Position numbers and translations under genes: made by a program. Shown piece by piece: positions 1 through 5,495 of a DNA stretch of 64,000 nt. Source of the stretch: Actinopolyspora biskrensis. GTDB taxonomy: Bacteria > Actinomycetota > Actinomycetes > Mycobacteriales > Pseudonocardiaceae. Within the stretch, counting starts at the first letter, position 1; each line of letters starts with the position of its first letter. The DNA is taken from positions 682,001-746,000 of the forward strand of contig NZ_JACBYW010000001.1 in the NCBI RefSeq assembly GCF_013408175.1, written 5' to 3'. The notes below the pieces were generated by a model. That model did no database searches, was not told the origin of the DNA, and saw nothing but the letters and a program-made list of their open reading frames with translations.

Positions 1-132
1 CGGCGGTGTGGGCAGACCCGAGCAAAGCACTTTCGGGCGTATTTCTTTGATTTCCTCGGGTGTTGCTGTCAAATTCGGGGTCGGCGCCGACGGCGCCTGG
101 TGAAGAATTCCGAACGAGTGGAGGTGTCTCCT
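1..132 (+). promoter_or_regulatory. Upstream region and ribosome binding site of the RiPP precursor gene
   Basis: No gene is visible here. The stretch from about 35 to 75 is less GC-rich than the rest and could hold the promoter, but I cannot assign clear -35/-10 boxes. A short GC palindrome lies near 88-104. GGAGGTG at 120-126 is a strong Shine-Dalgarno sequence 6 nt before the GTG at 133. It is the main support for the tiny precursor gene. Confidence 0.45.
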
Positions 133-246
133 GTGGATGCTTACAAGGAAGAGCCGTTCGAGGTCGTCGAGAGCCCGGAGCCCGAGGTGGTCCCGTTCAC
201 CATGACCATGACTTTCGTCGCCGCGGATGTCGAGGACGACGAATAG
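133..246 (+). CDS. Putative RiPP precursor peptide (TOMM/YcaO-modified), 37 aa
   Basis: This is a 37-codon GTG-start frame with an ideal ribosome binding site (GGAGGTG at 120-126), directly upstream of a leader-binding/YcaO gene. The N-terminal half is acidic (KEEPFEVVESPEPE, residues 5-18), as leader peptides usually are. The C-terminal half reads VPFTMTMTFVAADVEDDE. Three alternating threonines (T23, T25, T27) lie in a hydrophobic patch, followed by a very acidic tail. There is no Cys, and the only Ser (S14) is in the likely leader. If the YcaO acts as an azoline cyclodehydratase, threonines would give methyloxazol(in)es. If it forms an amidine, backbone amides are the target. The precursor role is inferred from position, size, acidity and RBS; the modification is unknown. 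A different small peptide outside the window remains possible. Confidence 0.75.
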   Translation: MDAYKEEPFEVVESPEPEVVPFTMTMTFVAADVEDDE

Positions 247-275
247 GGGTGCGCCACTCCCCGTTTCGGGTCCGT

Positions 276-303
276 GGGCGGATCTTCGTCCGCGGGTCCG
301 CCC
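276..303 (+). terminator. Hairpin between precursor gene and YcaO gene (possible attenuator)
   Basis: GGGCGGA (276-282) can pair with TCCGCCC (297-303). A competing inner stem, GCGGA (278-282) with TCCGC (289-293), closes a TCTTCG loop. The hairpin sits in the 124-nt gap after the precursor stop. Partial terminators there are common in RiPP operons and let the precursor be made in excess. No U-tract follows, so it may instead be a processing or stabilising stem. The function is inference. Confidence 0.4.
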
Positions 304-370
304 CTCTCTGCCGGGGGCACCTATGGGCTCCGGCGGCATCCCGCATTTGTTCCGTACAGGAAGGTAGTCG

Positions 371-2488
371 GTGGCACCACTGTGGTCGGCGTTGGTCCCG
401 CGCCGTGACGTCAGGTTTCGTCATTCCGGGGAACATCTGTACGTGTGCCGCGGCGACGGTGCGCCGTTGCGGTTGCGCGGCGAGCACGCCGAGGGCGAGC
501 CGCGGTTGTGTGAGCTGCCGGGAACGGCGTTGTCGGATCTGGCCGAGCGCGATCTCCTGGTTCCGAACGACGAACCGATGCGCCGGCACCCGTCCTTCGC
601 GCACTCCTGGAGCACCGACCTGCGGGCCGAGGTCGTCGGTGGGGATCAACTGAGCTCGGCCGTCACCGGCGCGCTGGTGGATTTCGGCGTCGAAGTCGAC
701 GCCGGTTCGGGGGTCGTGGTCCTTCCGCTGACGGCTCCCGACGAGACAGTGCGGGAGCGCTCGGAGCGGGCGGTGCGTGAGGGAGTGCCGGTGCTCGTTT
801 TCGCCGTGGCCGGGGCCCGCGTGTACTTCGCGGTGTTGCGCCCTCCGGACACGGCCTGCCCACTGTGCCTTGCCTCGAGGATCCGGTCCAATCGGTCTGA
901 TCAGGAGCTCGGCCGCCTCCCGCTGGAGATGCTGCTGGGTACCGCCTCCGATGCCGGATGGCCCAGCACCGCCGCCGCGGCGGGTCTGCTGGCGCACCAG
1001 GCACTCCGGGCGATCACCGCTCCCGGATCCTGCCCCGAGGGCCTCGTGGACCTCGATCTGGACACCTGCCGACGAACGACACATCCACTCCTGCACACCC
1101 CCTGTTGCCCGGCGTGCCGGGACCACGTGGGCCCGCCCGCCACGGCGCTCGTCGAGTCGGCCGCCACCGCCGAGTCCGCCTCGTCGGCGGGTAATGCCGA
1201 GCGGCTGCGACGTGCGGTGGACCCGCTGACCGGCATCATCGCAGGAATCCGCGTGACCGGGCCGGACGATCCCGGATCCGCGGTGGACTCCACGATGGCC
1301 TGGGGGCGCGGCGGCACCGATACGACGTGGTTCTCGCCGGTGCGGTCCTCGACGGTGGGTGGGGCCACCAAGCACGATCCGGTCGAGGCCGAGGTGTGCG
1401 CGATCGGGGAAACGCTGGAGCGCTACGCGGCCGGCATCTACGACCCCGACGAGTTCGTCCGCGGCTCCCTGGCGGAGCTGGGCACGACGGCCGTTGACCC
1501 CCGCGATCTCCCGCTCGGTTCGGAACGGGAGTACGAGCGGGCGACGGGCACACTGTTTCCCTACGAGCCGGATCTGGTGATCGACTGGACAGCCGGAGTG
1601 GATCTCGAAACCGGTGAGCAGCACTACGTGCCCGCCTGCGCGGTGTATGTCCCGTACCTGCCGCCCCGCAAGCGGGAACGCCTGTTCCACCCCGTCTCCA
1701 CCGGTCTGGCCGCGGGCAGCGCCCCCGCGCAGGCTCTCCGTGGTGGGCTGCAGGAAACCGCCGAGCGCGATGCGATGGCCGTGTTCTGGTACAACCGCCT
1801 CATCCGCCCGACGCTCGACTGGCGGAGCCTGCCGAGCTGCCGTGCCCGCGACGTTCTGGAGGGGATGACCCGGCGCGGCATCTCGTTGACGGTCAAGGAC
1901 CTCACCACCGACACCGGCATCCCCGCCGTCGTCGTGCTGGGCCGCGTCGACACACCGGAGCGCCCGGTCGCGTTGTGCGGATTCCGGGCCGACGTCGGCC
2001 CCTACGCGGCGCTGCTCGGTGCGGCCGAGGAACTCGAGCACGTCTTCAGCATGTACTGGCGCTTCGCCGCCTCCGGAGGGGAACTGGACCCCACGCGCGA
2101 ACCCAGCGATATCTGGGATTTCACCACCTACTACTGCCACCGCAGCCGGATCCCGATCCTCGACTTCATGCACGAGGGGCCACTGCACCCGGCACCGAGC
2201 CCGCCGTCCGAACCGCTGAGCGACGCGGAGGCGGTTCATCGGCTCGTCGGACTGCTTTCCGGGAGCGGACACCGCTGCCTCGCCACCGACATCACCCCGG
2301 TCGACGTCGCCGAGTGCGGCGTCACCGTGGTCCGGACCGTGGTACCCGGTTTGCAGCCGATCAGTTTTTCCCCGGCCTTCCGGCGGCTGGGCGGTTCCCG
2401 GGTTTACCAGGCCCCGGTACGGATGGGCCTGCGCGCGACTCCGCAGGCCGAGGACGAGCTCAACCCCTACCCGGTTCCCATGGGCTGA
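371..2488 (+). CDS. RiPP cyclodehydratase: leader-binding (E1-like) domain fused to YcaO
   Basis: 705 aa with GTG start; AGGAAGG at 357-363 is the ribosome binding site. Residues 1 to about 280 look like the ThiF/E1-like TOMM leader-binding partner. Two cysteine pairs, C163/C166 (CPLC) and C246/C249 (in CCPAC), would bind the structural zinc. Residues about 290-705 are the YcaO domain, which activates backbone amides with ATP. It contains ATP-site-like acidic motifs such as EAEVCAIGETLERYA and QETAERDAM, and a C-terminal proline-rich end (NPYPVPMG) typical of azoline-forming YcaO proteins. The gene lies between the precursor and an amidohydrolase (5-nt gap). It should bind the leader of the 37-aa peptide and cyclise its core. 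Azole versus macroamidine chemistry cannot be decided from sequence alone. Confidence 0.88.
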   Translation: MAPLWSALVPRRDVRFRHSGEHLYVCRGDGAPLRLRGEHAEGEPRLCELPGTALSDLAERDLLVPNDEPMRRHPSFAHSWSTDLRAEVVGGDQLSSAVTGALVDFGVEVDAGSGVVVLPLTAPDETVRERSERAVREGVPVLVFAVAGARVYFAVLRPPDTACPLCLASRIRSNRSDQELGRLPLEMLLGTASDAGWPSTAAAAGLLAHQALRAITAPGSCPEGLVDLDLDTCRRTTHPLLHTPCCPACRDHVGPPATALVESAATAESASSAGNAERLRRAVDPLTGIIAGIRVTGPDDPGSAVDSTMAWGRGGTDTTWFSPVRSSTVGGATKHDPVEAEVCAIGETLERYAAGIYDPDEFVRGSLAELGTTAVDPRDLPLGSEREYERATGTLFPYEPDLVIDWTAGVDLETGEQHYVPACAVYVPYLPPRKRERLFHPVSTGLAAGSAPAQALRGGLQETAERDAMAVFWYNRLIRPTLDWRSLPSCRARDVLEGMTRRGISLTVKDLTTDTGIPAVVVLGRVDTPERPVALCGFRADVGPYAALLGAAEELEHVFSMYWRFAASGGELDPTREPSDIWDFTTYYCHRSRIPILDFMHEGPLHPAPSPPSEPLSDAEAVHRLVGLLSGSGHRCLATDITPVDVAECGVTVVRTVVPGLQPISFSPAFRRLGGSRVYQAPVRMGLRATPQAEDELNPYPVPMG

Positions 2489-2493
2489 CGCGG

Positions 2494-3699
2494 ATGGACA
2501 GTGCTCGAATCGCGCATGCCGTGTGCCGTGCGTCCGGCCCGTACCGGATCGAGGTCGGCGGCATTCTGGGTCCTGGGGGAGTGGACCGTGGCAGGCGAGA
2601 CATCACGGTGCTGCCCACCGGCGGCTGGAAGGTGGGCCGTGCCGAGGACACGGTCTCGCCCGTCCTGCGGCTTCCCGAGAGCATCGCCGCCCCCGCGCTC
2701 TACGATGCCCACGTGCACCTGCACCCGCAGGTGCGCCTGACCGACTACGTGCGTCACGGCATCGGGAGGATCCGTGACCTCGGTTCCACCGTCGGTGCCG
2801 ACCAGGCGGTTCCCACCGGCCGGTGCTGTGCCGAGCCGGTGCCCGACATCGTTCTCGGCGGCCCGCTGCTGGACCGTCCGGGCAAACAGCGGTTGCCCTT
2901 CGCCGCGCCCTGGCGGGATGCGGCGGAGCTGCCCAACCTGGTGGACGCGGCCGCCGAACGCGGCGCAGCTTGGCTCAAGCTCTACGACCGGTTCCCGGGT
3001 GAGCTGGTCGAACCGGCGGTTCGACTCGCCCACGACCGCGGGCTGCGGGTCACCCTCCATCCCCCGCCGGGAGAGTACCGGGCCGCCCTGGACGCGGGGG
3101 TCGACGAACTCCAGCACTTGGCCTGCCTCACCCCGCGCGGGGACGGCAGCAGGGGAACCCGTGCCGTGCTGCGTCACTGGGCGGGCAGAGACCACGGTGA
3201 CGCCTGGCCGGACCTGCCGCGGGGTACGGCGATCTGTCCGACACTGCTCGTGCAGCACCAGCTGGTCCGCGAAGCCGAAAGCGACTGGACCTTCCCCGAC
3301 CACGCCCCGGGGTGGGCGGCCCTGTGGCGACAGCTTCCCACCGCGGCGCGCCCTTGGGGAGCGACGCAGCTGATCACCGCCCGTCAGGCCGTGGCTCGGT
3401 TGTCCGCGGCGATCGGGGAGCTGGATCACGCGGGCGTGCGCTGGGTGATCGGCAGCGACACCCCGAATCCCGGAGTGCGCCCCGGACGCAGCCTGTGGGA
3501 GGAAATGAACCTGCTGGTCAGCGCGGGGCTGGGTCCACTGCGGATCTACCGTTCGGCCGCCGTCGCACCGGCAGTGGCCGAGGCCGGAGAGCACCCGCTC
3601 ACCTTCCTGCCGCGCGGTGCGTTCGATTCCGGGCGGTTCTCCACTGAGCCGCCGACCGCCACCCTGCTCCACGGCTGCCTGTTCCGTCCGAATCCCTGA
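2494..3699 (+). CDS. Metal-dependent amidohydrolase of the RiPP cluster
   Basis: 401 aa. ATG at 2494 follows the YcaO stop by 5 nt; the longer open frame starting at 1975 overlaps YcaO and is not used. The amidohydrolase metal ligands are all visible: H73 and H75 in DAHVHLH, K162 (candidate carbamylated lysine) in WLKLYD, H189 in VTLHPPP, H208 in ELQHLA and D322 in IGSDTPNPG. It resembles imidazolonepropionase-like enzymes. In bottromycin biosynthesis, and in the streptamidine-type family, an amidohydrolase partners a YcaO in making or maturing a macroamidine. The same pairing is seen here. Its place between YcaO and dehydrogenase argues for peptide tailoring rather than primary metabolism. 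The exact reaction is inference. Confidence 0.82.
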   Translation: MDSARIAHAVCRASGPYRIEVGGILGPGGVDRGRRDITVLPTGGWKVGRAEDTVSPVLRLPESIAAPALYDAHVHLHPQVRLTDYVRHGIGRIRDLGSTVGADQAVPTGRCCAEPVPDIVLGGPLLDRPGKQRLPFAAPWRDAAELPNLVDAAAERGAAWLKLYDRFPGELVEPAVRLAHDRGLRVTLHPPPGEYRAALDAGVDELQHLACLTPRGDGSRGTRAVLRHWAGRDHGDAWPDLPRGTAICPTLLVQHQLVREAESDWTFPDHAPGWAALWRQLPTAARPWGATQLITARQAVARLSAAIGELDHAGVRWVIGSDTPNPGVRPGRSLWEEMNLLVSAGLGPLRIYRSAAVAPAVAEAGEHPLTFLPRGAFDSGRFSTEPPTATLLHGCLFRPNP

Positions 3700-3711
3700 A
3701 CGGAGATGATC

Positions 3712-4767
3712 GTGTCTCGATATCAGCGCAACCCCTGGCTGTTCATGGAGTGGGACGACGGCGACCGCGTGGGCGTCGTCGATGCACGCTCCCACAGCAA
3801 GTACCGCGTCGACCCCTCCCTGCTGCGGCTGCTCAATCGGATGTCCACACCGGCCGGTCCCGGAGAGCTGCACCTGAACGGCTACAGCTCCGAGGAACTG
3901 GACGCCCTGCTGCAGCGCATGGCCCGAGTGGGTCTGGTGGAGGTGGTCGGCGACGACGGGGCCGACGCTCTCCCGCAGTACCATGGCGAATGGTCCACGA
4001 GCGAGCTCGCCGTGCACGCGCGCTCGGGCCGGGGCGGTAAGCAGAAAGTGCGACGGTCCGAGATCCCGGACGCGCGGCTACAGCACGCCGAGGTACTGCA
4101 CACGATCCCGCTGCTCGAATCGGAGCTGCCGAGCAAACCTCTCGACGAGGTGCTGAGCAGCCGCCGCAGCATCCGCGACTTCGCCACCACACCGCTGACG
4201 CTGGACCGACTCGCGGCGTTTCTCGGCACCGCCGCACGCGTGCGGGGATGGCTGGGGGAGTGGACCTGGCAGACGACACGCCGCCCCAGCGCCTCCGGCG
4301 GCGCACGACACAGCACCGAGCTGTATCTCGTCGTCCGCGACGTCACCGGTCTCGAACCCGGTGCTTACCACTACGACCCCTTCACTCACGAACTCCACCA
4401 GTTGCAGCACTGGAACGACGAACACGACGAACTGCAACGCAGATTCCTCTGCGGCCCCATGCTCGTCGACACCCCACCCCCGGTGAGCCTCTACCTCGCC
4501 TCGTACTTTCGGCGCATCCAGTGCAAGTACGGTGCGATGACGCTCAGCCTCATCTACCGCGAAGTCGGCTGCCTGCTGCAAACCCTCTACCTCGTCGCCA
4601 CCGACCTCGACCTCGCTCCCTGCGCCACCGCGCTCACCGAGAGCGATCCCAGCCCCGGCTTCCTCGGTGAGCACCGCGATCAGTTCGTCCACAGCGGCAA
4701 CTTCGCCCTCGGGACGCCTGCCGCCGTGGAACCCGCCGCCCCCGGGTTCCACCCTCTCGGTTCCTGA
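3712..4767 (+). CDS. SagB/ThcOx-type FMN-dependent azoline dehydrogenase
   Basis: 351 aa from the GTG at 3712. GGAG at 3702-3705 is spaced correctly for this start and too close for the ATG at 3706. Residues 1 to about 110 form an N-terminal winged-helix-like region (SRYQRNPWLFMEWDDGDR). Residues about 130-350 are the nitroreductase-fold FMN domain, with SSRRSIRDF (FMN phosphate contact region), the RPSASGGARHSTELYLVV block and a C-terminal NFALGTP. SagB-type enzymes oxidise azolines to azoles in TOMM pathways. This suggests that at least one heterocycle is aromatised, or that another backbone dehydrogenation occurs. It ends the + strand operon before the hairpin at 4888-4934. Confidence 0.88.
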   Translation: MSRYQRNPWLFMEWDDGDRVGVVDARSHSKYRVDPSLLRLLNRMSTPAGPGELHLNGYSSEELDALLQRMARVGLVEVVGDDGADALPQYHGEWSTSELAVHARSGRGGKQKVRRSEIPDARLQHAEVLHTIPLLESELPSKPLDEVLSSRRSIRDFATTPLTLDRLAAFLGTAARVRGWLGEWTWQTTRRPSASGGARHSTELYLVVRDVTGLEPGAYHYDPFTHELHQLQHWNDEHDELQRRFLCGPMLVDTPPPVSLYLASYFRRIQCKYGAMTLSLIYREVGCLLQTLYLVATDLDLAPCATALTESDPSPGFLGEHRDQFVHSGNFALGTPAAVEPAAPGFHPLGS

Positions 4768-4952: not shown

Positions 4953-5495
4953 TCAAGGACGCTCGTTCCACGCGGAAAAGGCCGCGACGACCTCGTCCTT
5001 GCTCACCTCGCCGTCACCGTTCTGGTCGACCTCGGCCAAGTAGGAATCGACATCGACGTCGATTCCCGAATCGGAGACGAAATCCTCGATCACCTTCCGG
5101 GTTATCGCGTCGTTGCCGCTGAGCTCGACAATTCCCCACAGCGACTCGGCGGATGGTCGTACGACATCATCCATGTTCTCCTCGGCGAGCTTGTCCATGG
5201 CTCGACGGAAACCGTCCTTGCTGATCGCTCCGTCGTCGCCCACCTGCGCGACCGACCGGATCTCGCTCCAAAAACCGGTGAAAGCCTCTGCGGCCTTCGT
5301 CGCCTTGGCGGGAGTCTCGGCGCCACCGCTCACCGCTCCCTGCAACGCTCCCGCGGGGTTGGAAACCGTGTTCTCGGTGACCTGCTGCGTCATCGTCCGG
5401 GCAGCCCCGCTCACATCCGACTCCGTGATCCTGCCGTCACCATCGGAATCGAGGCCACTGAAAATAATGTCGGTCACGTACTGCTTGGACAGCAT
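4953..5495 (-). CDS. EF-hand calcium-binding protein (calerythrin-like)
   Basis: 180 aa; ATG at 5495 with GGAGAC upstream. Two canonical EF-hand loops are plain: DSDGDGRITESD near residues 16-27 and DQNGDGEVSKDE near 158-169. Two middle loops are degenerate (VGDDGAISKDGF and SGNDAITRKVIE). Four hands with the middle ones weakened, at about 180 residues and without a signal peptide, is the layout of actinomycete calerythrin-type proteins, which are soluble calcium sensors or buffers. It is convergent with the RiPP operon across a terminator, so a link to the peptide is not implied. Confidence 0.85.
   Translation of the reverse strand: MLSKQYVTDIIFSGLDSDGDGRITESDVSGAARTMTQQVTENTVSNPAGALQGAVSGGAETPAKATKAAEAFTGFWSEIRSVAQVGDDGAISKDGFRRAMDKLAEENMDDVVRPSAESLWGIVELSGNDAITRKVIEDFVSDSGIDVDVDSYLAEVDQNGDGEVSKDEVVAAFSAWNERP

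Follow-up and report, generated by a model that had tools for sequence, protein, structure and literature searches.

At the start of a 64,000-nucleotide stretch of the Actinopolyspora biskrensis genome (the window, G000:C1:682001-746000, from an assembly of 4.95 Mb in 15 contigs) lies a compact operon, at positions 133 to 4,767, that is best read as belonging to a rare family of azole-forming ribosomally synthesized and post-translationally modified peptide (RiPP) clusters of the thiazole/oxazole-modified microcin (TOMM) class. We consider it probable that this family makes hexapeptides of the form x-azole-x-azole-x-azole, which would be released from their precursors by an amidohydrolase and possibly capped. 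The gene content, the precursor family, the core pattern and the kinship of the enzymes are read from sequence, and every chemical step is one that we infer from them. The features of the operon are:

47..132, + strand: 5' region, 86 nt the same as the 5' region of an upstream paralogue; contains the ribosome-binding site (RBS) GGAGG
133..246, + strand: precursor gene P2, 37 amino acids (aa), GTG start; recognized by its frame, RBS, paralogue and related peptides at other loci
245..305, + strand: predicted G+C-rich stem-loop 3' of the precursor (a prediction without shuffle control)
371..2488, + strand: fused TOMM cyclodehydratase, a leader-binding E1-like domain plus YcaO with a PxPxP end; from NCBIfam, Pfam and alignment
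2494..3699, + strand: amidohydrolase, among solved structures closest to the bottromycin amidohydrolase; from profile, model with Foldseek, and invariant residues
3706..4767, + strand: SagB-type dehydrogenase; from TIGR03605 and a Lys-Tyr pair

An initial annotation of this DNA had proposed that a GTG-start gene of 37 aa with a good RBS, followed by a YcaO fusion, an amidohydrolase and a SagB dehydrogenase, makes up a YcaO RiPP cluster with the short frame as its precursor. The frames, the NCBIfam and Pfam matches and the intergenic gaps of 124, 5 and 6 nt confirmed this layout. P2 reads M(GTG)DAYKEEPFEVVESPEPEVVPFTMTMTFVAADVEDDE, and its GGAGG lies at 120-124, ending 8 nt ahead of the GTG. 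Residues T23, T25 and T27 are the sole Ser, Thr or Cys past P21, just as the annotation had stated, with S14 sitting in the leader; the peptide would divide into a leader (1-21), a core (22-27, FTMTMT) and a follower (28-37).

The P2 peptide matched no NCBIfam or Pfam model. A DNA search of its own genome found an 85% identical copy of window positions 30-304 just before the window, encoding the paralogue P1, VDAYKEEPFEVVESPEPEVVPISATASFVSSDVEDDE (initial V = GTG start; L003:14771-14884, outside the window), which has the core ISATAS and starts 362 bp upstream of P2. The two copies share an identical stretch of 149 nt, made up of the 86 nt 5' of the start and 63 nt of leader, and a stem-loop is predicted 3' of both, again without shuffle control. 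All 14 nucleotide differences within the gene are confined to its last 51 nt (chance of this among 200 aligned nt under random spread, 1.1e-9), where they change eight codons, seven of them nonsynonymously. At residues 23 and 27 Ser and Thr are swapped (by two nucleotide changes and one), and residue 25 is Thr in both. A fixed leader, a changing core and a constant residue class at the cyclisable sites are the pattern expected of a RiPP precursor. The initial annotation had held that finding a second conserved precursor before position 1 would speak against the P2 frame; the one found there is a paralogue, and therefore strengthens it. Related peptides also precede the same enzymes at five other loci. 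Chance origin of the frame is ruled out by the paralogue, the pattern of differences and the family-wide profile matches described below, and on these comparisons P2 is a genuine RiPP precursor.

The YcaO fusion scored above the NCBIfam cut-offs for both TIGR03882 (49.2 against 36.9 bits) and TIGR03604 (246.1 against 219.25 bits) and matched Pfam YcaO at E 2.1e-60. Its C-terminal end is PxPxP, with P699, P701 and P703 invariant in 6/6 loci. The SagB protein reached 114.5 bits against a cut-off of 78.4 for TIGR03605 and carries a Lys-Tyr pair at all six loci, which we take to be functional; oxidation of azolines to azoles is its inferred role.

The whole system is rare. At E <=1e-20, 119 of 297 family genomes contain a match to the YcaO fusion, but six loci in five genomes stand apart from the rest: its own locus and five at 50-61% identity and at least 624 bits, the next match falling to 35% identity and 165 bits. 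These six (own, L045, L046, L047, L048 and G079) include the named carriers Streptoalloteichus hindustanus (L045), S. tenebrarius (two clusters, L046 and L048) and Saccharothrix carnea (L047), all Pseudonocardiaceae. An amidohydrolase profile at E 1e-40 recovered the same number of loci, six in 5/390 family genomes, and matched 2 of 397 genomes of the order and 1 of 394 of the class, the own genome being included in each count; it found none in the nine other genomes of the genus listed in the 390-genome set. In contig scans, the single YcaO protein as query returned 126 stretches with no relative confirmed, and the amidohydrolase alignment returned 14 loci, four of them (L045-L048) this cluster. 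Of the remaining loci (L049-L058), L049 (33% identity) was examined, by reading and not by profile search, and the open reading frame list of its 10-kb contig shows no YcaO.

Seventeen precursors beside the six loci were found by script, and in their alignment (A6) F9 and P21 are invariant. The A6 profile marked 22 places at E <=0.001 in five genomes (two in A. biskrensis, ten in S. hindustanus, eight in S. tenebrarius, one each in S. carnea and G079), 17 of them rows of A6 itself and five new. Over 386 family genomes the profile hit 5, the same five as the amidohydrolase and no other. In these short peptides the acidic leader is conserved and the core hypervariable, and the follower is again acidic. 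The core follows the pattern P-x-[S/T/C]-x-[S/T/C]-x-[S/T/C]-[F/L/Y]: Ser, Thr or Cys stands at +2, +4 and +6 from the Pro in 21/22 places (the exception has Arg at +4) and F, L or Y at +7 in all 22, a rule that is partly circular, because the regular expression of the precursor search contained it and the profile was built on those rows. Outside that expression, P1 was recognized through the similarity of its DNA, and of the five new profile matches four follow the rule. A core of S. tenebrarius has two extra residues and a fourth Ser/Thr/Cys. Weak matches of the profile were a place at G047:C29 (E 0.046) and four others at E 0.65-0.99. The all-threonine core, which the annotation had put forward as the defining trait, did not survive as a hallmark: P1 has Ser/Thr/Ser, and since Thr fills all three positions in only 2 of the 22 places (P2 and S. 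carnea), it is a variant and not the rule.

One of the new precursors precedes the S. hindustanus array by about 0.5 kb. The other four are orphans far from any cluster, on S. hindustanus contigs C6, C12 and C13 and on S. tenebrarius contig C5, the last about 247 kb from the cluster on that contig. The C12 orphan and that of S. tenebrarius (L072:3346-3438 and L075:3232-3333, both on the - strand) have the core QTICIC in common and lie in matching surroundings, with flanks 88% and 81% identical and the precursor stretch 75%; no cluster enzymes were found among the called neighboring genes. A further orphan (L073:3254-3331, + strand) has its leader and core intact and its acidic follower gone, and is perhaps a decaying copy.

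We assigned the amidohydrolase by profile and by fold. Its match to PF01979 (17.8 bits) fell under the gathering score of 25. In a profile search the bottromycin amidohydrolase 6i5s came first, at 1.9e-14 against 7.6e-07 for the next entry, and a single-sequence search found it at 7.8e-05. The predicted model is of fair quality (predicted local distance difference test score, pLDDT, 68.3, with 77 of 401 residues under 50), and its best Foldseek match was again 6i5s (E 1.7e-14, TM 0.72, 22% identity). Residues H73, H75, K162, H189, H208 and D322 are invariant in 6/6 loci and are presumably the metal ligands. With the bottromycin amidohydrolase as nearest solved relative, the enzyme probably, by analogy, acts after the last azoline to cut off the acidic follower. 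A review states that the bottromycin follower is removed by PurAH, and refers to a paper that describes this enzyme in its title as thiazoline-specific. An unlikely alternative is that the protein is instead the leader peptidase, or a carboxypeptidase- or prolidase-like trimmer: arginine carboxypeptidase and prolidase-like structures are its next relatives, prolidase- and carboxypeptidase-like entries also following in Foldseek, the only NCBIfam match is a weak one to Xaa-Pro dipeptidase (E 0.0013; 17.9 against 500 bits), a Pro precedes the core in 22/22 places, and no other peptidase was found among the 32 neighboring proteins scanned by Pfam. Both profile and fold, however, place the bottromycin enzyme nearest.

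The six loci fall into two kinds. Spaced cores occur at the own locus, L045, L046 and L047, and these four also encode, upstream and in the opposite orientation, a conserved protein of 450-490 aa; a decarboxylase-like protein is present at the first three (3/6 loci), with a conserved His-Lys (3/3) and matches to the NCBIfam histidine decarboxylase PRK02769 in the two tested (2e-38 and 4.8e-36, below cut-off). At L048 and G079 the cores are contiguous (VCSSTC, VSCSCC, ACSCCC; ISSSSS), and an O-methyltransferase is present. The link of core type to accessory genes is suggestive only, because it rests on six loci from few genera. The amidohydrolase and SagB form a single protein in 3/6 loci (L045, L046 and L047). 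The "four-gene set" of the initial annotation is better described as a precursor family with three enzymes, two of them fused in half of the loci, often joined by two more genes outside the window.

The 450-490 aa protein is likely of the ATP-grasp kind and may be a circularly permuted (CP) ATP-grasp ligase, which it matches weakly in profile comparisons. In local mode, hhalign paired the alignment of the 489-aa protein (encoded outside the window) with a twelve-row CP-ATP-grasp alignment at 67% probability (E 5.1e-05). Two other cluster alignments scored 0.1 and 0.3%, a reversed target 0.5% and ten column shuffles at most 1.4%. A three-row alignment of the ligase-like protein gave 53% (E 1.4e-04). 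No credible sequence match was found for the 489-aa protein in the PDB.

Together these data suggest the following pathway. The E1-like part of the fusion would bind the leader, and YcaO would convert the Ser, Thr or Cys residues at +2, +4 and +6 after the conserved Pro to azolines, which SagB would oxidize to (methyl)oxazoles or thiazoles. The amidohydrolase would hydrolyse the amide after the last azoline and free the follower, like PurAH in bottromycin, and a peptidase, probably encoded elsewhere, would remove the leader near the conserved Pro. The predicted products are Phe-MeOxz-Met-MeOxz-Met-MeOxz for P2 and Ile-Oxz-Ala-MeOxz-Ala-Oxz for P1. The weakest part is a C-terminal cap, which the peptides may carry: at four loci the possible CP-ATP-grasp ligase (with the decarboxylase at three) would join the C-terminal carboxylate to an amine, and at the two loci with contiguous Ser/Cys/Thr cores the O-methyltransferase would esterify it. 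More tentatively, the clusters could form a separate Pseudonocardiaceae RiPP family in which cyanobactin-like [x-azole]3 peptides are combined with azoline-specific BotAH-like release and an ATP-grasp/decarboxylase-amine cap, one enzyme set serving a fast-evolving precursor library, some of it in trans.

Several results count against this pathway. For the ligase-like protein, the first hhalign pass, in global mode, gave a probability of 0.0; for the 489-aa protein Pfam gave nothing of weight and NCBIfam no match, a search of its own genome with PF04174 and PF14403 returned nothing, and the predicted fold of the 447-aa ligase-like protein reached a pLDDT of only 33.5. Among the precursors, the circularity of the core rule belongs here, as do the C13 orphan without the usual acidic follower and a further S. 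tenebrarius array member (the weak match at E 0.65) that breaks the rule. No peptidase family was found among the 32 scanned proteins, which are part of the neighbors, so the leader is probably removed by an enzyme encoded elsewhere. For bottromycin, S. scabies BtmI, an amidohydrolase, has been linked to amidine formation and BtmH is proposed for the follower, and for that reason the role given to the amidohydrolase here is an analogy.

A different fate for the hexapeptide would be closure head to tail by the ATP-grasp-like enzyme. The spaced six-residue cores do resemble those of hexapeptide cyanobactins such as the tenuecyclamides (with two thiazoles and one oxazole), and the possible CP-ATP-grasp protein is present at 4/6 loci, but a ring would leave the decarboxylase of three loci superfluous, two loci have no ligase-like gene in the stretches fetched, and no PatA/PatG-type protease occurs among the 32 scanned proteins, so that we regard a macrocycle as quite improbable. 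It is also doubtful, if a little less so, that the ligase-like protein and the decarboxylase are mere neighbors with no part in peptide maturation. Both are absent from 2/6 loci, the S. carnea stretch lacks the decarboxylase as well, and in A. biskrensis both are encoded on the other strand, next to a halogenase cluster that looks unrelated; yet at four loci in three genera the gene immediately upstream of the precursor array, in opposite orientation, is the ligase-like one, and the decarboxylase adjoins the cluster at three, on different sides.

The chemistry of the YcaO protein itself bears on the claim that the operon may represent a linear-azole or amidine subfamily, of which we favor the azole half. 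YcaO enzymes can form amidines and thioamides, and a leader-binding E1-like/YcaO fusion with SagB is the set known for azol(in)es. Because YcaO is here fused to the leader-binding domain and SagB is present, both above their cut-offs, and Ser, Thr or Cys recurs at three fixed core positions in nearly all places, an amidine or thioamide is very unlikely; no TfuA was seen among the 32 scanned proteins, in which no search was aimed at TfuA. Bottromycin and streptamidine are examples of amidines.

Comparison with known systems drew on published accounts of bottromycin, amidines, telomestatin and cyanobactins (PMC10885120, PMC5103208, PMC5469769, PMC8442711, PMC4663559, PMC6351551). The fused E1-like/YcaO cyclodehydratase, SagB and the leader-core precursor resemble the known azole-forming TOMM class, from which the short core with three spaced cyclisable residues, the acidic follower and the BotAH-like amidohydrolase set this cluster apart. 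With bottromycin it has in common its nearest solved amidohydrolase (PurAH/BotAH) and an acidic follower after a cyclised residue. The bottromycin precursor has only a follower and no leader, whereas a conserved 21-residue leader precedes the core here, and the stand-alone bottromycin YcaO proteins, without C protein (PMC4603692), contrast with the fusion to a leader-binding domain. Hexapeptide cyanobactins are alike in turning six-residue cores between conserved flanks into three azoles and in having several precursors or cores per pathway; unlike them, this family has another leader, actinobacterial hosts and, among the scanned proteins, no PatA/PatG-type protease. The telomestatin system (TlsC) has a short precursor with a contiguous Cys/Thr/Ser core, a YcaO protein and a flavin oxidoreductase, comparable to the contiguous cores at two of the six loci, but its product is macrocyclic and it needs the peptidases TlsS and TlsT and other essential proteins. 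No such family is described in the consulted parts of the Cox 2015 survey (PMC4603692), whose main text does not use the term "amidohydrolase"; among the matches listed, none of the openly licensed papers was recognized as describing this gene set. If our reading is right, a bottromycin-type amidohydrolase would be tied to ordinary azole formation, giving a compact release of azole peptides at a defined C-terminus. For the diversification of RiPP cores under a fixed leader, the precursor arrays together with the four orphans would form a natural experiment, and the product masses are predictable for direct tests.

Other genes were observed next to the clusters. An EF-hand protein gene (window 4953-5495, - strand) directly follows the RiPP operon on the opposite strand. 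Before the window, L003:18-10684 encodes a VioB-like protein (TIGR04492 5.8e-149, below cut-off), a tryptophan halogenase (PF04820 5.7e-165), a FAD monooxygenase, a P450, a LuxR-type regulator and a flavin reductase, an indole-type cluster adjoining that of the RiPP. That the halogenase and VioB-like genes are part of the RiPP cluster was considered and set aside: in blastp at 1e-8 against the fetched stretches of the other loci, the only match of the six proteins was a 28% one to a P450 in L037. Downstream of the second S. tenebrarius cluster, L042:839-6505 encodes two radical SAM proteins, a DegT-type aminotransferase and a protein with an L-amino acid ligase C-terminal domain.

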